Below are positions 255-62,217 of a DNA stretch of 64,000 nucleotides, piece by piece; position 1 is the stretch's first letter; each line of letters starts with the position of its first letter. Source of the stretch: Diphasiastrum complanatum (Eukaryota; Streptophyta; Lycopodiopsida; Lycopodiales; Lycopodiaceae); contig CM055100.1 of the NCBI GenBank assembly GCA_029204225.1, positions 63,433,141 through 63,497,140 on the forward strand, in the 5' to 3' direction. The notes beneath the pieces are model-generated. The model had not been told where the DNA came from. It searched no databases and worked only from the letters and a program-made list of their open reading frames with translations. The position numbers were made by a program, and so were the translations under genes.

Positions 255-610
255 TTTGGTGTGTTGGAACCTAAGAACTAATATGCAAAGGTTCCATGGG
301 GGAAAACCCATGAAACTTGTATGGAACCTTTTTATTTTTTATTTTTTATTTTTATTGTCTATATACTTAAAAGCAAATTTTTTTTTAGAAAAATGGCCCG
401 CCTCTAAAAAATGTGTATGGCCCCCCTCTATACATATGTGTGTATGGCTTCCCTCTAAAAAAATTTGCAAGAAAGATGGTTAAAAAAATCCAATTGTGAA
501 CGAAAAAAAAAAGTTTTTATGGTATGGAACGGTTTCGTACCATGAAATCTCACGAAAATGGTTGTGTGGGAACACTAATTGGAACACTAGTTGGAACTTT
601 TGAAATTGCT
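255..610. repeat. Possible inverted-repeat island with GGAACC motif
   Basis: Two clusters rich in GGAAC/GTTCC and CCATG/CATGG words (about 262-335 and 515-600) face each other around a core of T-runs, A-runs and repeated TGTATGG stretches. The left cluster begins near GTGTTGGAACC and the right ends with repeated GGAACACTA words, so the two ends are roughly inverted. The layout matches the motif islands at 32.4, 46-47.5 and 60.8 kb, but no clean terminal repeat or target duplication can be shown here. Confidence 0.35.
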
Positions 611-12822: not shown

Positions 12823-14113
12823 GTATGAAATACATTTTTGCTTTCTCTTTTGAAGAACCTAATTTCTTCTTTTGTGAAAAACAAATATTTTCATGATTTT
12901 TTGAAGGGATTTGTGTATGTTATGTTCATGTATACACCTTATGACTCATTGTATCGTGCGACAAATCATACAAAAGTGCAAAGTTAAATAACTTATTCCT
13001 ATCTCGCAAAGCGACTCATTGCTATTTCATAGAATGCTATACTAAATCACAACCTCCAATGACTCATTAAAAACATGAGATTGCCTACACGAACAACTTC
13101 TTACCATAGCATATCTGTCACACTTTCCTGGAAGGATTGTGCCTTTGTTAGTTCTCCCTCAAAGAAACTCATATCTCTATCAGTAAAAGCTACCCATCAA
13201 TGGTATTCACAGCTTCCATTAAAAGTTTCCAGCCGCCCATCCCACGACTTAGGTCTCCTTTGTAGAAATGGCTGTGTCATGCAACCACACGATGCATCAC
13301 ATATTTTTGAGGTTCCAAATGCAGCTAAATAAGGCCCTAACTGCCAAAACAACTACAAAAGCCAGTAAACCCTTACTAGACATCCTAACATCAATGTTGT
13401 CAACATTTGATTGAGTCACGACAGCTTGTGATTTAATCCAATGAGCTAAATTTTGAACTTGATGTCAAGGTTAGTTGTGTTGTAGTTGAACCTGAGAATG
13501 GTAACTAGTAGGAATGAGAGCACTCTTGGAAGTTTAAGCCAATTGGCATCATAATCCCCATATTGCCAACAACAAAAAGGAAAAAAAAAAGACGTTTCTG
13601 AAAAACGCTCCCCCATTTCAGAAACGCGTTACCTTACAAGCATAATATGCACTTTCAAAACATCCATGAGCTTTCAGGGCATGTTTCAATAGTTCTAGTT
13701 ATAAATTTCAAATCACAGTTTTATTCATTGAAGTTTCATGCTTTTGATAATGCTACTATGCTGAGGGATCCCCAGGTTTGCTTGGATTCCTAGGAAGAAT
13801 GGGCTCAACCCAACCGGGTTCCACATTTTGAGTCGAGTCTACAGACCATAGTCAAGTCTGGATTAATTAAGGAGCGCAAAAGCAAATTGGAATAAGAATT
13901 TTTTCAGATAGGCTATAATTTACAAATGGGTAATTAATAGCTACCAAGTATCTAAGCTAAGCTCGTTAGCCTCTTGAGTAAATCATATACTCGGATCCTA
14001 ACCTATATCTAAAACCTGGCTTCATCAAGCAAAAAATTCAATCAGCATCTAGAACACAGAATTTTTCTGCACAATGTGATGACATTACCAGCCACAACAT
14101 TTCAAGTTGTTGA
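12823..14113. other. Intergenic sequence and probable CCoAOMT 3' flank
   Basis: No other gene is visible. On the minus strand an AATAAA (plus-strand 13720-13725) could be the poly(A) signal of the methyltransferase, giving a 3' UTR of about 390 bases. A small GTTTC/GAAAC island with an A-run lies at 13577-13632. Confidence 0.35.
13577..13632. repeat. Short GTTTC/GAAACGC inverted-motif island
   Basis: An A-run of about 10 bases is followed by GACGTTTCTGAAAAACGC and TTTCAGAAACGCG, that is, two facing copies of the same word. It resembles the islands at 32.4 and 33.0 kb but is short and has no clear termini. Confidence 0.4.

Positions 14114-17506: not shown

Positions 17507-17559
<53 letters not shown>
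17507..17559. repeat. (GA)n microsatellite
   Basis: A 53-bp GA tract. It is followed at about 17570-17770 by several GC-richer ACGTGGC/GCCACGT and TTGCCAC words in both orientations, which I cannot assign. Confidence 0.95.
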
Positions 17560-17561
<2 letters not shown>

Positions 17562-17964
17562 CAGACCTATGTGGCCTGCTTGGCTTGCCATGTGGCAGAT
17601 TTTGAGCCCCACCTCTTTCTCTCTCTAGGTCCACTTAGGCCTACGTGGCAAAGCCTAGTTGGCTTGCCACAAAAGCCTATGTTAGACCTACGTGGTTTGC
17701 CACGTGCCAAACCGTAAGCTTGCAGGACTTGCCACATGGTAGACTTACGTGGCAGCCTACGACAAGAATGGCAGAATGACCAACAAGTTATCTCATGGTC
17801 GCGATTAGTGCACTTTTCAACATAATTGCAACTTGGATTAGCATTTTTCAAGAGGAGTTCTTCAACGCATCTTTAGTAGATGTTTCAATATCCCAATCGT
17901 TGATTTTTCAGTATTCCATTTTTTAATTTTCAATGCCCAAATCAGCTCCCCAAGATGAGTTGCA

Positions 17965-22711: not shown

Positions 22712-24822
22712 TTGGATCCTATGCACATATTCAACAATGTCGGTGAATCACTATGGAACCACATCATTGGCATAAAAGACAACTCAATAGCTCGTAAAGA
22801 TCTACAAGTGGCTGATGTGAAAAGACCCTATTGGATTCAGTACACTGAAGGTGGAGATGAGATTCTACATAGCGCGCCATAGATTCTTACAAAAGAGCAA
22901 CTCTCGCATATTAAACATGTCATAAAACAAAATGAGAACTCCAACGGACTATGCACATTCTTTATGCAAATCATTTACCAAAGATGGTAAATTAAGCGGA
23001 TTGAAATCGCACGATTGGCATAAGATGTTACAATTCATACTTCCACTTTCTATTCGAGGTTGTTTCAACGATGACGTATGAAATACGCTTTACAATTTAT
23101 CATCGATGATTAGGTTTGTATATCCTTTTAAACACTTGTATAGATACGTGCTATTTCAATATTTTTATGTGCTAAACAACCTAGTGTTATATCAATCTTG
23201 CAAGTGGATTTCCTCAAAAGAAATAAAAAATAATGAATTGGATTCCATGAAAATCCAAATGATCGAAATGGTATATTTGCTGGAAAGAGATTTTCCAACT
23301 TCTTTTTTGGATATACAAGTTCATCTTCTAGTGCATTTGGTCGAAGAAGTATCAATTGCAGGACCTGTGCACACAAGATGGATGTTCTACCTTGAGCATT
23401 TTATGAAAGTGCTCTGTGAGACAAAAGGCAAGGCCAGAAGGTAGCATTGCAGAAGGTTGGCTTGTACAAGAATCTTTGTTTATATTACCGAAATAATCTC
23501 ACAATTGCATTCTGCAAGTCCATAAATGTGGTGTGAAGAAGAAGATGAACGTGTTAAGGGTGAAGTACCACAAGGAAATGGTGTGAAAAAGAGACTTTCA
23601 TCTCAATTAAAAGAAAAAATTGACACGTTTATACTATATAATTGTGGACATATGAAAAAGTGGACTTCAAAGTACGAAGAAGCCAAAAAGGAACATAACA
23701 TCGAAATGAAGAAGACATACCAATCAAAGAATAAGGAGAGTGTTGAAGAATGATGAACCTTTGGAGCCTATACCTTCAAAATGCACTCGTGAATGAGTTC
23801 TTGATATGATGCTAAAAGCATCAGAAAACAGAAAAGAAGTGACCAAAATAGAATGAGAATTTGTTTGTGGATGTGCATGGAAGGTTAGTGTAGTATTGGC
23901 TTTGTGAAGTTTGTTTTTGTTTTACTCAATATATAAAATGGTACTTTAATTTACACAAATTTGTTTTTTTTTTTTTTTTTGTGTTTTAGTATAAATCATA
24001 CACTGCCATGTGGGCATATGGACATCATTATCGTGTTTAGAGAGTTGACAACAAGCGACGTACATATGATTGTGGTATATTGGCCAACTTTCAACAAGAG
24101 AGTCGTTCTAGTGCGAGGGACGTGAATGTCATTTCAGACGACCTAGACTATGTCGGCATATTGCAACATATTTATGAAGTCGATTATGAGACTAACAGCA
24201 AATACTTTATTTTTGACGTAAAATGGTTTAAGTCATCTATCGTGGAAGCAACGCCAAGATTAGAAATGGTAACTCAAAGTTTTTTCAAATCGTCTCAACA
24301 AAATGTATATCGATGGACTCTCATGACACTTTAGTATTGCCATGACTCTTAATGTCTTATTTAATTATCGATCTTATAAGACTAATTTAATTTTTTAATT
24401 TTTTGGCAAATTATATTTTATCCAGATCGAATAGACCAAGATGGTGGTATGTGATCCAACTTAATGCAAGAAAACGACATGTGTTTGAAGGACAAGATAT
24501 TGTTACATTGGATACACACGACGAACCATCACCCAATTTTGAGGTTTTGGAAGAACCCGAACCACTCATCCAAGCTTCAAATGATATGGAAATGATGGGA
24601 GAAGAAAATACAATTACAAATGATGAGATTCCTACGATCATACAAAGCCAAATTGAGGGTTTGAGGCCCCCACGTTTGGATGAGATAGAACTAGAAAAAG
24701 AGGAGGTTGAATATGAGGGTAGCTCACATTCTCAAAGAGACACGATTGGAAATCTACGATTATACTTAGACCTAGATTCAGATGAGTGTCAAAACTTGTG
24801 TGATGACGAGAATGATCTATAA
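22712..24822 (+). pseudogene. CACTA (En/Spm) TNP2-type transposase relic
   Basis: Read across stops on the plus strand: DPMHIFNNVGESLWNHIIG (22715 on), then LSGLKSHDWHKMLQFILPL with IRG (about 22990-23065), both typical of TNP2 transposases. Next is the DUF4218 region (LLVHLVEEVSIAGPVHTRWM, about 23310-23385) and a DUF4216 region (YVGILQHIYEVDY...VKWFKSS, about 24150-24240; RPRWWYVIQL, about 24430). The order matches intact CACTA transposases, with the N-terminal part missing. Several stops and an apparent intron-like T-run region at 23880-24000. No CACTA termini were found. Confidence 0.85.
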
Positions 24823-32373: not shown

Positions 32374-33049
32374 CAATGTCAATCAGTATTTCCTCAAAAC
32401 GTGTTTCGAACGCTGAAACACGTTCGAAATGGGACGTACGAAACGACCCCGTCTCGAAACGCCGTTTCTGTGTTCGAAACGATTGGAAAAAAAAACAATT
32501 TTTTTTTTTCTGAAACTGTGCCATAAGCTTTGTAGTATGTATTGGGAATGGGCATGAACAGATTCTCACAACCTAATAACCTATCCATGATAATATCAAT
32601 AATTGACTGAGGAAAGTGAACATAGTCACCATACACAGCTTCTCCTCTTGAAATTGCATTCTAATTTCTCTAGAGCATTCTCATGAAATTGGATGTATCT
32701 ACTTGTTGCTAGACTGTCTATAAGCTTTGTAGTATGTACTGGCAATGGGCATGAACAGATTCTTGCAACCTAACAACCTATCCATGACAGTATCAATAAT
32801 TGATTGAGAAAAGTGACCATAGTCACCATACACAGCTTCTCCTCTTGAAATTGCATTCTCTAGAGCATTCTCATGAAATTGGATGTATCTACTTGTTACT
32901 AGACTGACATCTGTAAACCCCAAAAACCCTCAAAAACACATTTTCAAAAAGAAAAAACCTATTTTTTTTTCCCCTTTCGAACCTGAACTAGATGTTTCAA
33001 ACGCGTTTCAAATGCGTTTCGACGTACAAAACGCGCCCATGAAACATTG
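32374..33049. mobile_element. Inverted-repeat element carrying a duplicated coding-like segment
   Basis: The outer ends read CAATGTCAATCAG and (reverse) CAATGTTTCATGG. Each arm next has clustered GTTTC/GAAAC words (left about 32398-32490, right about 32985-33045), then A/T homopolymers. Between the arms lies a duplicated segment with a coding-like frame on the minus strand. The plan is that of a non-autonomous DNA element that captured foreign sequence. No clean target duplication was found (TTAGATCA versus ATGTAGAT), so the exact ends are uncertain. Confidence 0.45.
32523..32905 (-). repeat. Tandem duplication of about 190 bp with exon-like coding content
   Basis: The units start near 32523 and 32713. 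The higher-coordinate copy reads on the minus strand SRYIQFHENALENAISRGE and on through RLLGCKNLFMPI without a stop, just after an acceptor-like GGTTTACAG. The other copy has a small insertion and a shifted frame. I do not recognise the protein. It looks like a host exon with part of its intron, captured and then duplicated. Confidence 0.65.
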
Positions 33050-34240
33050 ATGTAGATTATAATTAATCAATGATCAAGAACTCCCGACACCTATTGTACA
33101 TAACTCCCAAGTCCCACCTATTGTCATGATTCATGCTGCATTGTACATCGATGGTCAAGATTCAAGGGTCATGTAACGTCCCTCGACATTGTCTCGACTC
33201 TCTTGTCTAATGCTGATTATTGATAAGTAATGATCAATCCGAAATCTTAATAGTGCTCTAGATTCTAATTCATGTTTCATTCATAAATCTTATTCTAGTT
33301 CAAAATGTATGTTTTTATGCTTGGTTAGAGTTTTCTTTTGAAGTTTGTGAAGCTCGAGTGGCACACTTAATTTAGGGAGAAAGCAGTCCCGTTTCAAAAT
33401 GTTTTGAATAGGTTTTTTTTTGTTTTCGTTTAAAAAAAAAATCCAATTTTTCTATGGCGCTATACAATCTACATTGTAACCTCTCCCTTAATGGCTATTT
33501 AGTTTTTAGTGACACTTGACAGACCTTTTAAAACTTCTCAGAATTTTTTTACATAATGCTTTTGTGAAGATATTTGCAACTTCATTGTTGGTGTCACAAT
33601 TCCGTAGCTTGATGTAGTCGTACTAAACCGAAATTCCTAGCTCAAACACGGAAAATTTTGAAATTGATTTTCTTTTGTGTCACTATAGTCATGTAATAAA
33701 TCATGTCATTGTCATTTGTTCACACCCTAAACCTTAGGTTATTGCAATGTCTTGTAACTAATAACTATGATTTATTGTATGTTGTGAATGTAGTCAGCCT
33801 ACTACTGTGTTGTCAAGTTCCAACAGTGGTAATGGTAGTGAAAGTTGGACTTACGTGTTCGGCTTTTATGCAATTTTGACTCCTAAACAGAGATATTGTT
33901 ATAAAATCTCATCCTTAGTCAAGGTGAGACAAGACCCTCACAAGCATCTCCATCACTGCCTCAGTCATCATCGAATCCCTTCTATTACATAGATTCAAAA
34001 GGAAAAATTATAATAGATCAGGGGGGGAGTTGTTATTGATAGATTGCATCATTTATGAAATCATTATTTTGGAGATAGAATGTGTACACAATGGGCTGAA
34101 GAATTTGCTGATCTAAAATTGCGGATTGTTAATACCCTTCATGAGTATTTTCACAAGAAATGGAATTTGACACAAAATAAATAAATAAACACGAGGTTGT
34201 GGATAAGACATCATTGAGATTCAATGCAATGATGTTAAAT
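33050..34240. other. Unassigned sequence
   Basis: No gene recognised. A further GTTTC-rich patch with T- and A-runs at about 33385-33465 may be a single arm of another motif island. Confidence 0.35.
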
Positions 34241-34275
34241 AGAAGAAAGAAAGAAAGAAAGAAAGCTTTATTAAT

Positions 34276-34304
34276 GTCTTTTCCATGCCAAAGGCATATA
34301 AGAC
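34276..34304 (-). other. LINE 3'-terminal hairpin
   Basis: Coding-strand reading: GTCTT, AT, ATGCC, TTT loop, GGCAT, GGAA, AAGAC, then ATTAATAAAG. Outer stem GTCTT/AAGAC and inner stem ATGCC/GGCAT are perfectly complementary. The same plan occurs at 43050-43079 and 58421-58450. Confidence 0.8.
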
Positions 34305-34434
34305 TAATGAAGTACATGTCAAGTATGTGGTAACCATGGGAGCGTATAAAAACGTCTCCAAAACTGCAAAAAGAAAAAACATCTAGTACAAATTAAGACA
34401 GATAGTCCTATGTATCCATGTCAAGCTATAAGGA

Positions 34435-37400
34435 CTATGCTGAAATTGCTAGTGCTGTGCTGGTGCTGTAGAAAGATGTAATGCGAGCCGCAACACTAGA
34501 AGGCACTGGAGCCTGATGGCGTCGTCTATGAGTATGAGCACGGGCATGTGTAGTAGTACGTCTCTGTGTGGAATCTTTGGTGATCCTGGTGATAACGCGA
34601 TGGTGGGACGTACATTGTCTTTGATCTCTGTGGGCATGTAGGCGGCTATCATCCTCATTGTCGTCATAATCCTCATCCTCATGCACTAAATCATATGATC
34701 TCTGCCTAGTGAAGAAGGAAGTAATCAATGGCTGTGAGGTAAAATGTGAGGTAAAATGCTGGGATGTCCCGGATAGATCTCTCCGTAATATGAACATCTG
34801 GCGTACCATTAGAGCGACACATCGTGGGTCCTCATGGGCTATGAGAGAGCGTAGAGTGGTAGGTATGTCTCAGAATAAGCAATGATATCGCCCTTTGATC
34901 TCATAGTATACAGGGCATCTAAAGATAAAATGCTCCTCAGACTCCACCTCACCTAAAGAGCATACCGGGCAAATCCGCTCCTTTCTAGGAATACCATAAA
35001 ATCTCCCAGTCTCAATAGCTAGCTGATGAGACGACACCCTGAGCTGTCCCAAAGTGAATCTGAGGCAATGTGATAGACCCGAGCCCAAGTAGCATGGCAT
35101 GACCGGGGTTCCTGATGCATCCAGCTCCAAAAAGTGAGTCCGGTAGAAAGCTGGCTTAACCCCTAATTGGTTATGCCGAGTCCGCTCTAGATATGCGTGA
35201 TAGAGGAATCGTCTGATATACTCATGGGTGCCCGAGAGAAGTGCTGTGATGGAGATACCAAATGACTCTAGTAAGAGGTGCGATGCCTGAGAGAACCATG
35301 ATAATCTGTAGCCCTGACCATGAAGACTCTGTGGGGAGGACAACGCAATCTGTATGTATCGTCTGTCTATATCTGGTAATGCCTGGACCCTCTGTATGGA
35401 GGTAATGAGCTGAAGAGCTGCCTGGATCTGTATAGGTGGAACCGCAAACTCGGCCAGGAGAATCTCATGTGGTACAGAAGGCTTCGCTCGGATCAGCCGA
35501 GCTAGCATGGTGGTCTGTAATCGTGAAAGACTAGCCCAGTGTACCTATACACCATGCCTCTGCCGCATAAAGAGCCGTCGGGGTAACAATGGTATCAAAG
35601 AGCCGACACTTGCTTCGAGCATCATGAATGGACTTCCGGAAACAAAATCTCTCTAGCTGAACAAGGGAGGCATGTCCCTTACCCAATCGGGTGGTGGCGG
35701 CCTGTCTCATGCTAAAAGTAGGACCCGAGAAAAGGATCCCCAAGTATGTGTATGAAGCGACCACCTCTAGAACCTGCCCATCAAGAGTAAGCTCCTGTCG
35801 CTGCATGAATGCTCGAGAAGCGTTGAAGACCATGACCTTGGTCTTCCCAATGTTCACCCCTAGGCCCCATCTGGTGCAGAATTCCTGTAGGCAATCTAAC
35901 TGTCGCTGTAGACCCTCTCTGGTAGGTGAGACCAGTACCACATCATCGGCATAAAGGAGGATAGCAATCAAGATGTCCCCAATCCTGCAACCAGCGCCAC
36001 TGCACGTGTAATGACTCTCTCCAACTCATCAATATACAAGCCAAAGAGGACTGGTGAGAGGGAGCAACCTTGTTTTACCCCAATAGTGCTCCAAATGTGA
36101 TCGGAATAGCCACTGCTATGCCGGAAACATCCCAGGACACGCTCATAAAGTGCCATCACAGCAAGAATGATGTCGGTGGAGAAGCCGAGGTCTCGGAGTC
36201 TCTGGATGAGTAGCGAGCGAGGAACAGAATCAAAGGCTTTCGTGAAGTCCACAAAACAGCAGTAAACCCTCTCTCTCCTATGCTTAGCCTCCTCAATCAA
36301 GGTCCGTAGTGTGAAGATGTGATATGTGGTAGAGTGATGGGCTCGAAAACCCGCCTGACCCATAGCATGTAGTCTCCTAGTCTCTGCCTCTGAGCTCACA
36401 ACAGACTGAAGTATAGTATCATATAGCTTTGCCAGGACATGTCCAATCATGATGGTGCAGTAGTTACTCGGAATCATGGGGTCACCATTCTTATGGATGG
36501 GGTGGATAATGTTAGTGCACCAGGACGATGGGAAACAACAACGGAGTTAAGAAGGGTAGCTGTGGTGGGAGCGAGTAGGTCAGAGGCATGAGAAAGGAGT
36601 TCAGACTCAAGATCTTCAATATCTCTGGCCTTGTGGGACTTCATTTTCTTAATGGCTGCAAGTACCATGTCAGATGTAAAGAAAGAGAACTCAGATGGTC
36701 GCGGGGATATAGAGATAGGTGGGTCGGTAGGGATAGTATACAAGCTAGTAGCATAAGCAGTCCAAATGCGGAGGTCCTCCAAGAGAGGTGGCGGAGAGCG
36801 CGGAATGAACTCACGCCAAAAAGCGCCCGAGGAGGAACTGAAAAGAAGGTCAATAAGACGTTTCCCTTTAGAATCATCATAGGAACGCTTCTTACGGCGG
36901 AGAACACGATGATAGGAGCATTGGGAAGATCGAAGTAGATGTGGGGCATGGGTATGTGAGTAGGTTACTGACTGATGAAGAGAATGGCACTCGGTATCGT
37001 ACCATGGGGGGTGCAGTGGTCGGGGTGTGCGTCGAGTCTTTTTGGGATGGGGTTTTGTGGGGAAGGTTAGTGATGCAGCTGAGTGGAGTGAGGTGGTGAG
37101 AAAGGTGGCCTGGATGTCGACTAGACTGTCATGAGGAAAGGAGTGCAAAAGTGAAGCCAGGTACTGCTGGTATAGTGGCATGTAAGTGGGATCAAATGTG
37201 TACTTGGGTGCTCGGGTAAGCATGGGTAATGAAGATGGAGGAGTAGGTCGAAGGTGGCCAATATCGAAGGAGAGAAATGAGTGATCAGAAAGGGTGGTGG
37301 GGGAAATGTGGAAGTCAGAGACTATGGGTATAAAGGATGGTGACCCCATGCGATAGTCAACGACACTATGTCCTCCACTGTGAGGGTGACATGTATAACT

Positions 37401-38111
37401 GTCTGAATGTGGCCAGCAGGGTAAGCCATTATAAATGGCTAGCTCATGTGCCTCTCCAAATTGCAATAAGTACTCACCATATGGAGTAGTAGGTCCCGAA
37501 CTATCTGCGGAAGTCCTGGTAACTCCAACCATATCACTGTCAAGGGCACGAACACGCAGCTGATCCGTGGTGTCGAAGAACTCCATCTGTCTCGATGATG
37601 TCCGGACATTAAAATCCCCTGTGAGGAGAATATGCCCACGCTCTGAGAATCTGATAATATCTAGTGAGAGATCCTGATATGGAGATCCAATACCCTCAGC
37701 AAAAGATGAAGACTCTGGTGGAAAGTAACATGCTGCAATAAAAACATCTCTATCCAAACCGATATCATGACCCACGATGCGAGTCCAAATATAGCGAGCC
37801 TGCTCGTCATGTCCGACGAAGTCCATACTCGAGTGAAGAGACTCTCTGTACAAGCAGGCTACCCCACCTGAACCTCGACCACTGGCAGACCTAGTTTCTC
37901 GTCGGAATACTGAGTCCCATCTATATCCAAGAAAACAAGGAAGTCCTCGCTCCGGGCTCTCATGTGTCTCCATGAAGAATAATATATCTCTGCTTGTAAT
38001 AAAATCAACAAGGTCTCCGGTAGAAGAAGAGGAATGTATGCCCGCACAGTTCCACACTCCAATCCGAAGGTGGTGTGGATGGGGCCCCAAGGTGCTCCCA
38101 ACCCCGGGCAC
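34435..38111 (-). pseudogene. LINE ORF2: endonuclease, reverse transcriptase, CCHC knuckle
   Basis: The endonuclease (38090 to about 37230) shows WNCAG, METHE, TGDFN, VDYRMGSP and LSDHSF, so the apurinic-endonuclease catalytic set is present. The reverse transcriptase follows with [36 protein letters not shown] and LYADDVVLV. The C-terminal knuckle is ICPVCSL...EEHFIFRC. Frameshifts near 36530, 36000 and 35545 and a TGA in place of an arginine codon near 34878 break it. The last open segment (34809-34435) is an acidic then Arg/His-rich tail. The protein would nick the target and copy the element RNA into the gap. Confidence 0.92.
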
Positions 38112-38120
38112 CCCAAATCC

Positions 38121-39541
38121 TTAACTATGGGAACCATCACGAGCGCTATCCAAACGGCGCACCCGTCCATCTCTGTATATAATACGTATGCCTGACTCCC
38201 TAGCCTTCTGAAAGGCCTTACGCCTCTCCTCTACCTGGATATAGGTGAGATCATCATCCATGTATATAGTGGTACCCCGTAGTTTGGCTCTACATCGTAA
38301 GGCCTCTCTACGGCTGGCTAGGGATGTGAAGCGGATGATCAATGTAGCTGCATCTCTGGTGGTCCTCCAGGCGGTGTCTAACCCATCTGTCCCATGTCCA
38401 AGGGTGGTCTCGAAAAATCTCGTAGCTTCGGCCATGGCATCCTACGTATCTGGTATCCCGCGAACTCTGATATTATGAGCTTTTTGTTTCCGTGACCGTT
38501 CTTCCGAGATGGTGGCTGAGATGACTGAAGAAATGGTAGCACTAGGCTTGGTGCCCTTCTTCAATACTGCTGCCCATGAAAGGGTTTCTTCTTTGTGCTG
38601 TTCAATCTTATTTTCGAGCTCCCGTATCATGGTGGTAGTAGATTTTGAGGCAGCAACCTGTTTAGTACTAATCACTTGTTCCAATGTGGCAACTTTGGAC
38701 TCCAACACGTTCTTTTCTTTGAGCAGAGAGACCAAAATACCCTTTAGCTATGAGAGCTCTTTTTTCAGAAGCTGGAAATCGGCTTTCAGTTGGTCGACTT
38801 CCCATGAGGAGAAAAGCTCGGTGGACTTTGAGGGAGTGTATGGGATCGGAGGAGCTATAGCTGGTTGGGAGATGGGAATAGGAAGGAGGCCGTTAGGAAT
38901 TGCTTGATCGATCGGATTTGAATTCAACAAAAGGGAGGCCTTGGAGGTAGCATCGAGGGGGTGGGATGAGGCAGTAGCTGAGATGGCAGCTGAGGTGGCA
39001 TCAACATCATAAGCAGCTGATGTGCCAGCAGCATCAGAGGCAGCTGCGGTGGCAACAACTAAAATGGCAGCATCTGAGGTGGTTTCTGTGGTAGCAGTAG
39101 CGAGGGGGGGCAGGTTAGCAGCATCAGCAGCTGAGCAAGTAGCTGAGGTAGCGCTAGCAAGGGGAGGGGGTAGGTCAACACTCTCAGCAAGGGCTGAGGA
39201 AGCAATATCCACGAGGGCACCAACGAAGGGGGGGGGGGGGGTACATCAGTAAGAGCAGCGAGGGGGTGGGCAGTAGCGAGGAGGTCAGCATCGGGGGGAG
39301 GTGGAGAGCCAGCAACAATGGAGGGGAGTGAGGTGTCAGCGAGGGGGGGTGAGGAGACAGTGAGAGGGGGTGAGATGGCAGGGGAGGGACGAGGGGGAGT
39401 GGGTGTTTTTTTCCGAGGAGGCATGAAGGCAGTAGTGGAGCAATGGCAGTAGGGCAGTAGGGCGATGGCGGTAGGGTGATGGCCAGCAGGGTAAGCATGA
39501 GAGAGAGAGGGAGGCGATGGAGACAAAGGTCCAAACCTCAT
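38121..39541 (-). pseudogene. LINE ORF1: Pro/Ala-rich leader, coiled coil, RNA-binding-like domain
   Basis: Successive minus-strand frames: a Pro/Ser-rich start (39541-39059), an Ala/Thr-rich segment (39212-38748), a heptad-like helix LLKEKNVLESKVATLEQVIS (38735 on), and a domain reading NIRVRGIPDT, then FTSLASRREALRCRAKLRG and DDLTYIQVEERRKAF (38470-38160). That order resembles L1 ORF1p: coiled coil, RRM-like, C-terminal domain. Two in-frame stops break it. ORF1p coats the element RNA in a particle. The long G-runs on the plus strand at 39227-39241 lie in the Pro-rich part. Confidence 0.75.
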
Positions 39542-39590
39542 TGGTGTTTGAAACTCGATTGGAATAAAGTGAAAGTTGAGAAAACAATCA

Positions 39591-41085
39591 CCAGAAATAA
39601 AAAGTCAAAAAATATTATCGTAGCTAGGATGCAAGGAATGGGCAATTCTTAAATGGGATGGAGTGGAAGGAGAGGCTTGCAAGCAAGCATAGTAATTCAG
39701 TCTACACTCTAATATCTTGTCTTTTAAATATTGATAAATCATTTAGGTTTTTGTTTTTTTAACATGACATTATTAAACCCTAAATCACATGTGATAGATG
39801 GCAGGACTATGGACAGCTCCCCACTAAAAGCACAACTTTGCATATGGAGAGTCATAATGCATTAGTGGGTAAGTTGACTAGTGAAGGTTACCCTCCATAA
39901 GTGAGTTATTTTGCAATATATAGGCATATCTTATGTGTATTTTATTTTAGCCCTAAATCCTAATTCTTGTTTTGTTTCTTTGTGTTCATGCAAAGTGGAT
40001 GTCGAGGATTAGATTTAGGCTAGCATTAGATTGGATATACCATATGTAATTATATTAGATTACAGAGACTACAACAGCAATACTTTTGTAATTCAAAAGA
40101 AAATTCTTGTTTTTTTCTTTGTGAAATGCATTTTGTAATATTGAATTATGACATGTAATATGTGTAATGTGGTTTTGATATTTGACATATATGAATAATG
40201 TTCATTGATTAACGTAGAATATCTGTCGAAGTTTGCATGGCTATCACAGGCGCCTCATTATTTGCACTCTTCATGGTTGTCTACGTACCTACCCAAATAT
40301 TCTACTAAGTTAAATTAATGTTTTCACTTCTAAGCAACTGTCTGAATCTCGATAGTTTAATTCGATCCTTATAGTTTTTCATTATTTTTCTTTTGATTGG
40401 GGAGACAAGTTTGGGCTCACTTCTGCTACCCTATGGAATTATGTCACACCTCCCAACATGAAAAACTTGAAATAACCCTTAAGTCTTTTATGTCATACTC
40501 AGAGGTCTTAAGGTGCAAGGTACATTTGATTCTTGCAAGATATGCAAGAAATGCTGCAAGTGGCCAAAGAAAGCATTAAAATCACTCAAGATAGTGCTTA
40601 GCTTTATGCTAACTACGGTCGTTTACCTTAAGAATTTGAGGTCAGAACCTAGGTGTATCTTTAAACCTCTAAAGATTCTAAGGTCGTTTGAATTGAGAAA
40701 TGTTATGAGTTAGTTATCTCCTTGATGTAGCGATCTTTTCAAGGTTGTCAAGAAAATCACTATATTATTTAGCGATTAGATTTGATAGTTGGAGTTGGGA
40801 TTTGTTATGTATTCCATGTAAGTCATTTAAAAGAGTGACTTAGTAGAAAAAAATAACCTTATTTCTGAAGGTAAATTAGTTGAGTTGGAAGACTTGACCA
40901 CCTTTGTACCACTGGTGCTAGAAAAGATTGTGAATGTTTGGTGACACTACTCAAGACACCGAATGGTCTTTCAATTTTTGATTCATTGGAAAGGAAAATC
41001 AAATGATGAGGATAGTTGGTAGAGGGAAGACTGCTTACTACTGAACTTTCCTAATTTGCTCCCTTTAGGAGAGGGCTCTTAACAC
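39591..41085. other. Unassigned sequence
   Basis: AT-rich, with no coding frame or repeat family recognised. It includes whatever target sequence flanks the LINE 5' end. Confidence 0.35.
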
Positions 41086-41241
41086 GAGTCATCACAAAAT
41101 GTGCACAAAAGTGTGCATTTCAAGCACTTATTAAAAATCATCTCTCATTAACTATGATGTGATAGAGTCATCACAAAATGCGCACGAAAGTGTGCATTTC
41201 AAGCACTTATTCAAAAAATCATCTCTCATTAACTATGATGA
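41086..41241. repeat. Two tandem copies of a unit of about 79 bp
   Basis: The unit begins GAGTCATCACAAAATG at 41086 and again at 41165, with a few substitutions and small gaps. Each copy contains GCAC-AAAAGTGTGC, a short inverted repeat that recurs at 42085-42110 beside a run of GCAC repeats. Confidence 0.9.
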
Positions 41242-41426
41242 ATCGCATCAAATTCTTTCACATGTGTGTTCTTCATATATACATTTACCAATTAAAAAAT
41301 TTGAGACCTTCATTTTGAGCAACTTATATGTAAGATATGATGTGTCAAACATGTGGGTGTATTGATGAAACTTCAAGATTCTCATATATGGGACTACATT
41401 ATTGTATTTTGCATTCAATTTTTTTG

Positions 41427-41938
41427 TGTGTCTCTTAAAAATCTTATATGATTATAGAAACATGCCTATAAAAAAAAATTTGAATTTTGAGGTTTATAGA
41501 GATAGATACGTGCATCCAAAGTTATCCATTTAAAGTGTTGATAAAAATCACCAAAACTGGAAGTATCATATTTGATTGTATGACACCATGATTTAAACAA
41601 TATCTTTTTGGGTTGTCTACTTTAAAAAGTATTATATCTCCATAGAAACATCTCTCTCAATTTTTTTTCAATTTGGAGTTACATAGAGATAGATATTGTG
41701 CATCTAAAGTTACCCATGCCAAGTGCTGAAAAGTGTTGAAAATTATTGAAAGGTGCTAAAAAGTTGCAACTCTTTTGGAGGTGCTTTTTACAACCCTTTC
41801 TCTGGCTATCTACTTTAAAAAATCCTATATGACCATAGAAATACGTCTATAAAAAAAATTAAATCTGGAGTCCTATAGAGATATACATGTGCACCTAAAG
41901 GTACCCATGTGAAGTGCTGAAAATTGAAGTTTTTTGGG
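41427..41938. repeat. Three diverged tandem units of about 190 bp, satellite-like
   Basis: Units at about 41427-41613, 41614-41806 and 41807-41938 share the order CTACTTTAAAAA, TATATG-CCATAGAAA, a run of A or T, TATAGAGATAGATA, GTGCATCTAAAGTTACCCAT and AAGTGCTGAAAA. The last unit is incomplete. No coding potential; this could be an old satellite trace. Confidence 0.75.
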
Positions 41939-42589
41939 GTAAATTGCCATCAATTGTGAGAAAACAAATTTAAGTCTTTTAATAACACAAGGAAGAGTCA
42001 AGTTTAGTTCCACATACAATGAAAGATTGAAATTTTAATCATTTGATGACATGCTATGTCTCGTCAAGTGACCAAGGGTTTTATGCGCACGCGCACGCGC
42101 ACAAAAGTGTGCTAGTGTTAAAGGGGGAGAGAATGTTACATACCCATAAGGGCATGCAACAATTTACTTGAGGTGATGATCTTATTATGTGGGACAAGAT
42201 GTTGGTCTGAGGCTATAGGTCATTTGGGTGCCACATGCCAATGTTCTAGTGGCACAAGGTAAGTCAAAGATATTGACTTGCGATAGTACACGCAATCCAT
42301 GCGTGTCACTGGTTATGACATGACCATGTTTCCAAAGCTAACCCAACCTGTACTATGTATATAGAGGTGGATCTCCATGAGTTGGATATTCATTCTCACG
42401 TAGAATATGAAGAGCTCTCCCACATGGTTAGGCCAAGATGTTACCTTGCCTCAAGATGTAGGTATGTGAAGGACAATGCCAAGGTGTGATAGTATGTGGG
42501 ATGTCATAGCTTGGTGGAGGCCTAGGTGTGTTTGATAGTTGTCTATAGCTCTAGTGCATAGGAAATGGGAGGGGGGGGGGGAGGGGAGA
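41939..42589. other. Unassigned sequence
   Basis: Contains alternating GCAC repeats at about 42085-42105 and a G-run at 42570-42582 that abuts the LINE fragment. No gene recognised. Confidence 0.35.
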
Positions 42590-43105
42590 TGATAGTATCT
42601 CTATGGATAGGTGGTTTCAGAGCATCATCACCCAATTATGTCCTTACGTTGGTTGGCTTCGACGATGGGGGTTCATAACACCTCATCCCGCGGGAGATCA
42701 CGGATGGATGATGATAGTGGCGACGACAGTGACTCTCTATTACATCGAGACCAGAGACGAGGCACTACTCATGTTGCCCGTAGAGCCACTATTCAAAGAC
42801 GACCTTCTTGTCGACGTCAACATCATCTATTGAGAGCACCTCCAGGCGTTATACCCATCACATCTTTCTTCCACAGCAGCGATACTTGATGGCACATGGT
42901 TATACCATTATCTTATTGACAATATTAGACCTTTGCTTTTTAGACCTACTTCATGTTCGTAGTATAGTATATTGGCATTTCATTTCATCTATGTTATGGA
43001 GACGTTTCACACGGTCCTAATGTACCACACACTTGACATTTACTTTTTCGTCTTATATGCCTATTGGCATGGAAAAGACATTAATAAAATCTTTCTTTCT
43101 ACTTC
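42590..43105 (+). mobile_element. 5'-truncated LINE 3' end
   Basis: The frame at 42611-42889 (MDDDSGDDSDSLLHRDQRRG and on to PITSFFHSSDT) matches the acidic then Arg-rich tail of ORF2 in the 34-39 kb LINE. The 3' UTR follows, with the terminal hairpin at 43050-43079, ATTAATAAAATC and a (TTTC)n tail ending near 43100. Only about 0.5 kb of the element is present. Confidence 0.85.
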
Positions 43106-44391
43106 GAGATACCCTTACTCAAGAGGCTGCAAGGACTACCCCTCCAACAACTATTATTTCTAGTGTTTCTATCACTCCTATATTCACTCCTCATCTCATC
43201 CCTTCTTTCAGACCCACGGCTCCATATTTCAGTTTCTCTTTGCGACTCCCTGGCAGCATGGTCTTTCTTACCAGGCCACTCCGGCCCCCCACACCTCCCA
43301 AAACTTATTTGATTCTCTCCATTTTTCCATTCTTAATGCTTGTCCCCTTGGTACTCCCCCCGCTTCTCCTCGACCAACTGTTCACATCCTGCCATATGAC
43401 ATAGATGTGGAGAAGCATATAGTTAAGGATGATCGTGGTGCTTGCATCATCACTCACGGGAGGCAACTCATGTATGTGGTATTTTTAAGAAACATATTTA
43501 AGAATTGTCGCAAACAATATGAATCTAACACAAAATATACCATTGAACAATTGCACACAGACTTTTTAGTCCCCCCTCCCATTTACAATTAAGTTCCAAG
43601 TGGATGTTGTGCCACATGGAAGCAATTGTGAGACATCACAAATCAGAGATCTGAGATACGATGAGAGTTGAAAGAGCCAAGAAGTCTTGCATACACATAT
43701 AAGATTGGAAGTTTGCTAAGGAGTTATGAGAGAACCCATAAGTAACAACAAGATGCTGCTTAGAGCACGACTTGCGGCCTTCTCATATGGGAAACATTGG
43801 TGGGGGGCATTTCCATGTCTATTTTGTAAGTCGTCTACTTATAAGCTGAATTTGATTTTAATTGCATTCAATTGTTGGTTTTGTATTTTTACATTTATTC
43901 AAGGAATTGGCGGTAAGATGGTCTCCCACCAAGAACAAATATGAGTGTGTGTATCGAAACAATATGCAATCAACCAGCCTTGCCTTATGCTTGTTGTTTG
44001 AGCCATCCACATTGAACTTTGTTCTATGGATCTGCCAATGGGTTTCTTACCCTTGGGCAGTTTGATTAACTCCCTTGCCTTGTTCTTTAATTATGGAGCT
44101 GTGGCTTGTCCCAGATGTTAGTATTATTGAATTAATCATGATGAAAGGTCTCAATGTTTTTTCCAAAACTTCTGTAATTCAGGGAACTGAGACAGTCAAA
44201 TGATCTTAAAAAGACTAAGATTATAATATTGTTTTTGCCATATATGTCCACTTATCACTTCTCATTTCCTACATCTTAGACGCAATTTCTGATCGAAAAC
44301 TGTTTTGTAAAGATCAATTTGTCTGCTGCTGAAACTATCTTGAAAGATAAAATTTTGTCTTCTACTTATCGAATGTTGATTGTTTTTTCAG
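43106..44391. other. Unassigned sequence upstream of the first PP4R3 coding exon
   Basis: Two plus-strand frames, 43033-43404 (Pro/Thr-rich) and 43407-43592 (HIVKDDRGACIITHGRQL), read like remnants of a retroelement protein, but I cannot identify them. The rest is presumably leader intron of the phosphatase subunit gene, since a splice acceptor lies at 44389-44391. Confidence 0.35.
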
Positions 44392-44435
44392 TTCTGTATG
44401 TGAACAAGTGGGGGAATTTGATGGTTTATGCACTT

Positions 44436-59788
<15,353 letters not shown>

Positions 59789-60807
59789 GTATGTGTTGCA
59801 TCCTTTAAGATTTCCTGGAATATGTATACACAATTGATGGAGTGACAATAAGCTAAAGCCATATGATACATTATGTGTATGTCAATGTTCTTGCACATGA
59901 CTCTGAAAATAGTTGACTAGTCCATTTCAGCAAGTAGTTTGGGCTTCAGTATTATTTTCATGCATGTGTTATTGTACAGTGAAATTTAGGCAAAACTCTT
60001 GTGTCTTGGATATCTTGATAAGTTACAGTGTGTGCGTATTGCACAGTTTCTATCAGCCGCAAGAGTTGTACAAGGTTGGCTGCAGATTGAGTCTTGTTGT
60101 TGGCAAGATGCATTAACATCTTTGGGCCTACTTAGTTGATCTGGCTGCAAAAAATTGTTTCATGTACAAGAATTTGAAATTTTATGTAGAAATCTGGAAT
60201 TAACTTCCCGTTTTATTTTTGTATAGTTAGCCAGCACCTAAATTGCCATCAATGTGTTTCTAATACTTCCTCCTCTCTAAGACAGTTATGTGTTTCTGGT
60301 TTGATTTAACTGCTGGTTACTTAGTTTGGCATTGATATTTACTAAATTCACTTTAATGCTTTACGTGATTAACTTTTCTGCTTTAGACCAACTTGCCTCT
60401 TAGGCAGCAAAGTTTTTAGAAACTGATCTGTAGCAATGCTATATCCTCACTATCAAAGAATTGTACAGCTGCAGTGACACAATAATAGATTAAATCAATA
60501 AATCTTTAATCAATACAAGACTGTAAGGTTTTGAATATAAAATTATACCACTTGAAAGATGGAGTGAAAGCTAGAGTTTTGCAGGCTCTCATGGAATTAG
60601 GTACATAATCCAAGCCCGAACAAGAGTAAACTGGAGAGAGTATTTAAAATTCGGAGATAACTGTTCACGGAGATCAATATAGTCTATGGGACCCAATAAC
60701 TTAAACATTATCAATGTCGTATAAGATCCAATAACAAAAACAGATAACCCTGTTTTAAGATCAACTTCAACTAATCAGAAGAGTCGAAAAGATTTGTGCA
60801 TCTAGTG
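59789..60807. other. PP4R3 intron 6, left part
   Basis: AT-rich, no recognised repeat. The next expected PP4R3 exon (continuation of the SMK-1 domain) was looked for from 59,789 to 64,000 and not found. Confidence 0.5.
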
Positions 60808-60960
60808 CATAGTTGCACTGGTGATTCGCGAATTGCGAATTGAATTGCGATTTGCGAATTGTGAATTGCGAATTGCTGGCCCAAGAAACCAGCAATTCGT
60901 GGGTTTTCCAGCAAAACGTTTTCTTATTTTATTTTATTTCAAAAATACGTGCAATACGGT
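60808..60960. repeat. Motif island beginning CATAGTTGCA (GCGAATT words)
   Basis: It starts CATAGTTGCAC (60808), the reverse complement of the terminus of the 46.2 and 46.7 kb islands, followed by at least four copies of GCGAATT plus variants (GCGATTTGCGAATTGTGAATT), and then a T-rich tract. The matching CTATG end was not found with confidence. Confidence 0.55.
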
Positions 60961-62217
60961 ATCAGTAGAAAGAGAAAAAAGACGAATATAATTCCAGTAG
61001 TTTCGGGTTTAGGGCTTGGGGCAATTAGGGTTTAGGATTTAGGGTCAAATTCCTAGCAGTTGGGAAGTCCAATTCATTTTTTTGGCAAAAAATATATGCA
61101 ATATGGGTATCAGTAGAAAGAGGAAAAAAGAGGATTACGATTCCAGTAGTTTCAGGTCCAATTCCAGGCAGTTAGGTGAGATGCCATTTACACAAAATAG
61201 GGGGCATTTTTTTTACTGCCAAACTTATGACCCAATTGGGATCAACATTCTATACACTTGATGGAAACTCCAATTTATTTTGTACAAAGCCTATGATCTT
61301 TTATGTGCATGTTTGGAGAAGAAAGAGGTCCTTTTCAGGGAAGGAGGGTGTGTTCTGGTGGAGCTCATCGTGCCCGACTTTCTGAAACTTTATAGACAAA
61401 TTGTCATTTTTTCAAGAAAACTTAAGTGAAATTGGATTTTCATAACAACAACATCCTCATCAAGAACACCATTTAGAAGCAATGCACCTTCATTCACCTA
61501 CAACTTGATTCGACTAGCTGATCTCACTCACCCTTTACTAATTTACTTAGCTCCTTGTACGCCTTTTTTTTGGTTCCCTTTTTCGCTAGCTGAAAACTCT
61601 GAAACTCTCTCAACCATTCAAGAAAACGAAGCATTTGCAAACACAACACATGTAAGTAAGCACTTAAGCGACCTTCTTAGTTTCCATCGTCACCTTGCCC
61701 ACTTCTCTGTGTGGTGTGTTGTTAGGCATTGTGTTTGAAAACCCTAAACTGGAGAGCTGTGCTGTGGTCTCTGCTCCTCGTGATCTCTGACACCACACAC
61801 ATAAGTGGACAAGGTGAAGATGGATGGGTAAGAAGGTAGTTGAAGTGCTTACTTACAAGTGTTGCCATCTTAGTTTGATTGAAAGGTCGAGAGAGTTATG
61901 ATGGATCACCGACAAATGTCGGTTCACCATCACTCATTATCGTGCATCCATACTTGCCACAAAACATCCGTCAATGGTCAGCCATATGCAAAACCAACGA
62001 TACTTGCAAAATGAAGCTTTTGCAAAAAGTTTAAGGACGTAGGATTCTTACCTCTGCCTCGCCGTGTGAATAGAACTCAACTTCTGGGTGATGGTCTCTT
62101 CTTCCTGATGGGGAAGGCTCCTGCGCAATGCCTCTCTACTGGGAGGTCTCAATGTAGAGTGACCCATTCCAGGTTCTTTTAGAAGACATAGCCAATTTCT
62201 CTCTACAGGGGTATATC
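60961..62217. other. PP4R3 intron 6, unassigned part
   Basis: Contains a weak local duplication: TATCAGTAGAAAGAG(A/G)AAAAAG with ATTCCAGTAGTTTC occurs near 60960-61010 and again near 61105-61155. No coding sequence recognised. Confidence 0.4.

Follow-up and report, generated by a model that had tools for sequence, protein, structure and literature searches.

A 64 000-nucleotide stretch of contig CM055100.1 of the lycopod Diphasiastrum complanatum (the window) contains eleven short gene-less islands with copies of a word of five to seven letters, repeated beyond shuffled sequence in eight of them, largely in both orientations and beside runs of A or T. These islands are probably short non-autonomous DNA transposons of hAT-like type, with the words as putative transposase-binding sites. 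Two of them lie close together in an intron of a PP4 regulatory subunit 3-like (PP4R3-like) gene; their ends point the same way and their outer 8 bp flanks are exact reverse complements of each other. This layout is that of reversed-ends transposition, an origin for which we hold the case to be evenly balanced.

Word content of the islands

The islands were lettered A (46.1 kb), B (46.6 kb), C (47.3 kb), D (60.8 kb), E (46.75 kb), F (32.4 kb), G (33.0 kb), H (59.2 kb), I (13.6 kb), J (33.4 kb) and K (0.3 kb). A fixed-window k-mer scan and a repetitiveness profile of the window also picked up tandem repeats and many ordinary places, and tests on each island were therefore used. The sum-of-pairs 6-mer score was compared with that of 1000 dinucleotide-preserving shuffles of the same island at a corrected threshold of 0.05/11; the limits were set by eye around islands picked beforehand, which flatters the p values. 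No shuffle scored as high as C, E, D, G, A or H, and p was 0.002 for K, 0.003 for I, 0.013 for B, 0.04 for F and 0.43 for J. Eight of the eleven islands (C, E, D, G, A, H, I and K) passed the corrected test. The commonest single word was significant alone (p of 0.001 or less) in C (14 copies), E (10), D (7) and G (4), nominally significant in H (p = 0.011) and K (p = 0.012) and not significant by the shuffle test in A, B, F, I and J (p from 0.29 to 0.73). AACCGT is present in C in eight forward and six reverse copies, GCGTCC/GGACGC in E in ten copies and GAATTG/CAATTC in D in seven; the top word of H, TTCAAA (four copies), runs in a single orientation. The word-dense islands of the first-pass annotation thus stand for the eight, less firmly for B and F and not for J, and its two-orientation arrangement is seen in C and E, for example, but not in the top word of H.

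Forward plus reverse copies of the shorter words were counted over the eleven islands. AACCG reached 8+6 in C and was found elsewhere just in B (1+0) and K (0+1), while GGACG was found in E (7+4) and F (1+0). AATCG was distributed over A (1+3), B (2+2), H (0+2), F (0+1) and D (0+1), and AAACG over F (4+1), G (2+2), I (2+1), J (0+2), D (1+1) and B (1+0). Four of the five copies of GCGAATT in the whole window sit in D. The earlier statement that the word differs from island to island is therefore correct for the nearly exclusive words and too strong for AAACG, common to four islands, and AATCG, common to two. Because of this sharing, a motif that diverges between copies can equally be read as a motif proper to each family. 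Word drift between copies of one family may have occurred; the comparison behind it involves three ends, two with GAATCG (A and B) and one with GCGAATT (D).

Two further islands with a word in both orientations, GTGGCA, were noted at 1250–1610 (five copies) and 17550–17960 (six copies), with p = 0.003 each; they contain GTGGC, the Hermes/hobo word, in 4+2 and 4+3 copies, respectively.

Composition and folding

The observed/expected ratio of CpG was 1.2–2.5 in all ten islands other than K, where it was 0.54, compared with 0.50 for the whole window, values that do not fit a CpG-decay artefact, which the first-pass annotation had named as a refuting case. Nine islands, making up 2.1% of the window, hold 13 of its 37 A/T runs of at least eight bases, the island limits for this count taking in the runs that flank them; random placement gave a mean of 0.78, and none of 5000 placements was as high. 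Ten pieces of eight islands (A, B, C, D, E, F, G and I) were folded as single-stranded DNA. All were more stable than their shuffles (z from −2.8 to −11.9; no more than 2 of 200 shuffles reached the stability of any piece), the extreme being the right arm of C, a long stem of nested word copies. The A/T homopolymers first described beside the words are present, and the folded pieces form hairpins. Eight of the 72 perfect palindromes of at least 10 bp in the window, pure A/T excluded, fall in islands.

The arms of C align to each other beyond shuffles, as does F to the reverse complement of G, mainly across A/T runs; the alignment of the E arms was restricted to a T-run. An A/T-rich core, AAAATC(C)AATT, has four of its seven copies in islands; it was picked post hoc and is a hint only. 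The word spacing of C fits 10.5 bp (p = 0.04, periods 6–16), but this was obtained from one chosen island and was not relied on.

Ends, flanking sequence and identity

Three exact copies of CATAGTTGCA are present in the window, all at island edges, where 0.25 (Markov-2) or 0.4 (Markov-1) would be expected; the CATAG/CTATG ends reported earlier, three of them with this sequence, were accordingly recovered. C has CATAGAA at both ends, and the 8 bp flank duplication attributed to it is present with agreement at seven positions, not eight. Among CATAG/CTATG pairs 60–1200 bp apart, only C has 8-base flanks agreeing at seven or more positions. The value of this pattern lies in its coincidence with the edges of the densest island.

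According to a table in PMC4423477, hAT elements have CA-starting ends and 8 bp duplications. The islands are regarded as hAT-like because their ends start with CA, at both ends of C and at the single CATAGTTGCA end of each of A, B and D, and because the flank repeats are of 8 bp. For Ac, Herves, Tag1 and Tol2, it is documented that transposase binds short words clustered close to the ends (PMC3260210, PMC3143072). The Ac word, AAACGG, is bound cooperatively (PMC3260210); the Herves word is CGATTCAT and the Tag1 words are AAACCC and TGACCC (PMC3143072), and a role has been suggested for TGAATT, which lies between the ends at the Kat1 site (PMC4763223). By analogy, the words described here may have the same function: they are similar in length to known hAT words, are clustered beside ends and mostly contain CpG, as does the Ac word.

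In the proposed mechanism, a CATAG-type end would be adjoined by clustered forward and inverted copies of one word, in most cases with a CpG, and the cluster would serve as a gathering site for transposase made elsewhere. The word would differ by element type since each would follow the DNA-binding finger of its own transposase, and different words would then imply different transposase partners. Islands that have no recognised ends may belong here as well.

Several results weigh against the hAT-like assignment. No match to a hAT-type transposase was found in the 47 open reading frames scanned out of the 291 of at least 60 amino acids in the window. B, F and J failed the corrected word test. 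C alone has both ends together with an ordinary duplication, and that with one mismatch; D has no partner end with a matching flank, and the probable borders of E, F and G taken as one element, F, G, I, D, H, J and K yielded no ordinary duplication of a convincing kind. A blind scan for inverted ends with 8 bp duplications gave 15 in the window and 7, 11, 9 and 12 in four simulations; simulated sequence giving nearly as many, the scan was rejected as a stand-alone proof. The non-autonomous hAT-like group of the first-pass annotation is therefore supported by the ends and flanks of C and by the inverted 8 bp flank of A and B, while the evidence does not extend to one common group.

Membership of another superfamily with repeated binding words near its ends (CACTA, Mutator-like or foldback) is unlikely. 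In its favour, there is a CACTA-type remnant at 23.1 kb, a fragment of DUF4218, which is a domain of CACTA elements. CACTA membership was rejected since the ends of C, A, B and D read CATAG and not CACT(A/G); the flank repeats, moreover, are of 8 bp and not of 3 or 9 bp (table in PMC4423477). Slightly less likely still is a non-transposon origin of the islands, in which their sequence grew through hairpin-guided template switching or slippage; the long near-perfect stems (C right arm, z = −11.9) and the 7 bp tandem steps in D would suit such growth, which leaves unexplained the shared ends at separate places, the flank repeats and the high CpG.

Within the hAT-like reading, we consider it doubtful, though somewhat less so than these two alternatives, that the word is homogenised within an element faster than between elements, by hairpin-guided template switching over both arms. 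Copies with the same CATAGTTGCA end (A and B with GAATCG, D with GCGAATT) would then drift to new words, and transposase fingers would follow.

Inverted flanks of islands A and B

A single intron of the PP4R3-like gene holds A, B and E, to judge by two exons read by eye, one ending at 45858 and one beginning near 47012; C is located just past the latter. The ends of A and B both point to the right, and the 8-mers outside them, ATTTGAAC and GTTCAAAT, are exact reverse complements, which had escaped the first-pass annotation. No further exact copy of either was found between 44.5 and 48.5 kb. As a control, all non-simple 5-mers served as mock ends; of the 360 368 same-type pairs no more than 3 kb apart, 14 matched in this way (3.9 × 10−5 per pair), the 14 including the A/B pair itself.

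In reversed-ends transposition, two neighbouring elements attack a site close by with their facing ends; the DNA between one element and this site is inverted, and the product has a transposon at each breakpoint and the 8 bp duplication at both junctions (PMC8225341). Its signature, matching inverted 8 bp duplications at two same-pointing ends, was found at 46190 and 46716. Applied here, two facing ends of neighbouring elements would have transposed, inverting about 0.4 kb of the PP4R3-like intron together with B. One target duplication would thus have been split by an inversion of about 0.5 kb, the inverted unit consisting of 397 bp of intron and B. The inner edge of B, CATATTGCC, which resembles CATAGTTGC, is probably the second end of B. 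Part of it, CCCATATTGCC, has copies in the window only at B and at island I, each beside an A-run (two copies against an expectation of 0.04, noticed after looking). Against this origin, no second end was recognised at A and neither A nor B has an ordinary duplication of its own; those sought for A alone, for B alone and for the left of A with B were not convincing.

It is quite possible, if less probable, that A and B come from a single ordinary insertion, duplicating ATTTGAAC, which was later cut in two by an inversion made without transposase, with one breakpoint inside the element and the other in the flank. Such an inversion yields an identical order and orientation. Together A and B are about the size of C (103 + 121 bp versus 278 bp), and AATCG words and A/T runs are present in both, but CCCATATTGCC recurs only at I, which would suit a genuine second end better than a breakpoint. 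A chance match between remnants of two unrelated insertions is very improbable: the match was found after looking, among 1011 CATAG end pairs of all types compared by the same script, but the control rate gives about 0.02 even with half of these pairs eligible, and A and B are the only CATAGTTGCA ends lying close together. The little probability that is left falls to other rearrangements.

Comparison with known systems

The Ds1 class of maize Ac/Ds elements resembles the islands in being short and gene-less, with short inverted ends, 8 bp duplications and the repeated hexamer AAACGG near the ends (PMC3260210). The differences are the 11 bp ends of Ac, as opposed to CATAG, the words (here AACCG, AATCG, AAACG, GCGAATT and GGACG) and the denser arrangement of the words in the islands, where they are folded into nested hairpins. 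To judge by the title of its description, hATpin is a MITE-like (miniature inverted-repeat transposable element-like) hAT element with highly stable secondary structures in diverse plants, and is similar to that extent. Herves, a hAT element of Anopheles, has CGATTCAT repeated at both ends as the transposase site; six letters are shared with the A/B word CGATTC/GAATCG, which may be chance, and Herves is an animal element with few word copies per end (PMC3143072).

For the A/B pair, the closest parallel is the reversed-ends transposition of Ac/fAc, with a transposon at each inversion breakpoint and a matching 8 bp duplication at both junctions; there, inversions of about 81 kb were induced and tracked in maize stocks, whereas here there is a sequence trace of about 0.5 kb without a progenitor (PMC8225341). 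Galileo of Drosophila likewise has foldback-like ends with several transposase-binding sites and generates inversions, but belongs to the P superfamily, with a THAP finger and far longer ends (PMC3688188).

hAT families with subterminal words of their own and short gene-less hAT elements have already been described, and the inversion signature is a notable addition to these. Segments with CATAGTT...AACTATG ends and iterated words are common in plants. No description of CATAGTT with a terminal inverted repeat was found in the literature searched, a collection outside which repeat libraries and most subscription papers lie.

Other features of the window

The positions of the islands and of the transposon remnants are listed in Table 1. 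F and G are perhaps the left and right arms of one element; between them lies a 197 bp tandem duplication in two copies (32515–32906). Ends and a duplication were looked for at E and not found. J runs into CTATG (33452–33456) after AAAAAATCCAATTTTT; AAAATCCAATT is also present in K, at 485, and no partner end was found for either. H and K are doubtful members of the group. To the right of D is a diverged duplication (60928–61030 and 61073–61177), in both copies of which a GCAATA(C/T)GG stretch resembles the CATATTGC edge when the latter is reverse-complemented.

The PP4R3-like gene is on the + strand and starts at about 44.4 kb; the peptide joined from exons read by eye gave two PP4R3 matches when compared with structures (best E = 2 × 10−25). 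An inverted-repeat element (45352–45690, arms of 43 and 26 nt) is located beside a 36 bp tandem array (45218–45352). An O-methyltransferase exon was found at 14.1–14.4 kb (Methyltransf_3 match). Searches of the window for tRNAs and against Rfam at the gathering threshold gave no matches.

Table 1 Positions of islands, flanks and transposon remnants in the window
Feature	Position	Strand	Remarks
Island K	255–600		GGAAC words, low CpG
Island I	13559–13645		Edge CATATTGCC as in B, A-run, AAACG words
Copia-type element remnants	20.0–20.4 kb and 56.0–57.2 kb
DUF4218 fragment	23082–23444
Island F	32390–32520		GAAACG/AAACG words, A and T runs
Island G	32965–33060		AAACGC words
Island J	33385–33460		Two reverse AAACG words, A/T runs; word density not above shuffles
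Long interspersed nuclear element (LINE) remnant	35.5–38.1 kb
Island A	46087–46189		AATCG-type words preceded by A/T runs; right end TGCAACTATG; limit on the left uncertain
CATAGTTGCA, edge of A	46180–46189	−
Outer flank of A, ATTTGAAC	46190–46197	+	Proposed target duplication, copy 1
Proposed inverted intron stretch (397 bp)	46198–46594	−	Suggested by the inverted flanks and the model in PMC8225341
Element B (121 bp)	46595–46715		Left edge CATATTGCC, A-run, AATCG/GATTC words, right end TGCAACTATG
CATAGTTGCA, edge of B	46706–46715	−
Outer flank of B, GTTCAAAT	46716–46723	+	Reverse complement of ATTTGAAC; proposed target duplication, copy 2
Island E	46730–46985		Forward and inverted GGACGC words; long runs of A and of T
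Left flank of C, AGCGTGCA	47273–47280		Agrees with AGCATGCA at 7 of 8
Element C (278 bp)	47281–47558		Ends CATAGAATCAA and TTCTATG; 14 copies of AACCGT over the two arms; middle with A/T and C/G runs
Right flank of C, AGCATGCA	47559–47566		Agrees with AGCGTGCA at 7 of 8
Gypsy-type element remnant	48.3–50.4 kb
Island H	59200–59310		TTCAAA/GATTCAAAA repeats; top word in one orientation
Island D	60808–60945		Left end CATAGTTGCA; GCGAATT in 7 bp steps; right end unsettled, possible GTGCAATACG near 60950
CATAGTTGCA, edge of D	60808–60817	+

Significance

If borne out genome-wide, the same build with different words in related elements would show in what way transposases and sites change together. 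Homogenisation of the words, if true, would mean that a transposon's recognition code undergoes concerted evolution, and would offer a route to new transposon families. The A/B pair, if derived from reversed-ends transposition, would be a natural trace of a process described in maize Ac/Ds stocks, and its signature, two same-pointing ends with inverted 8 bp flanks, is open to a search in the genome of any plant.
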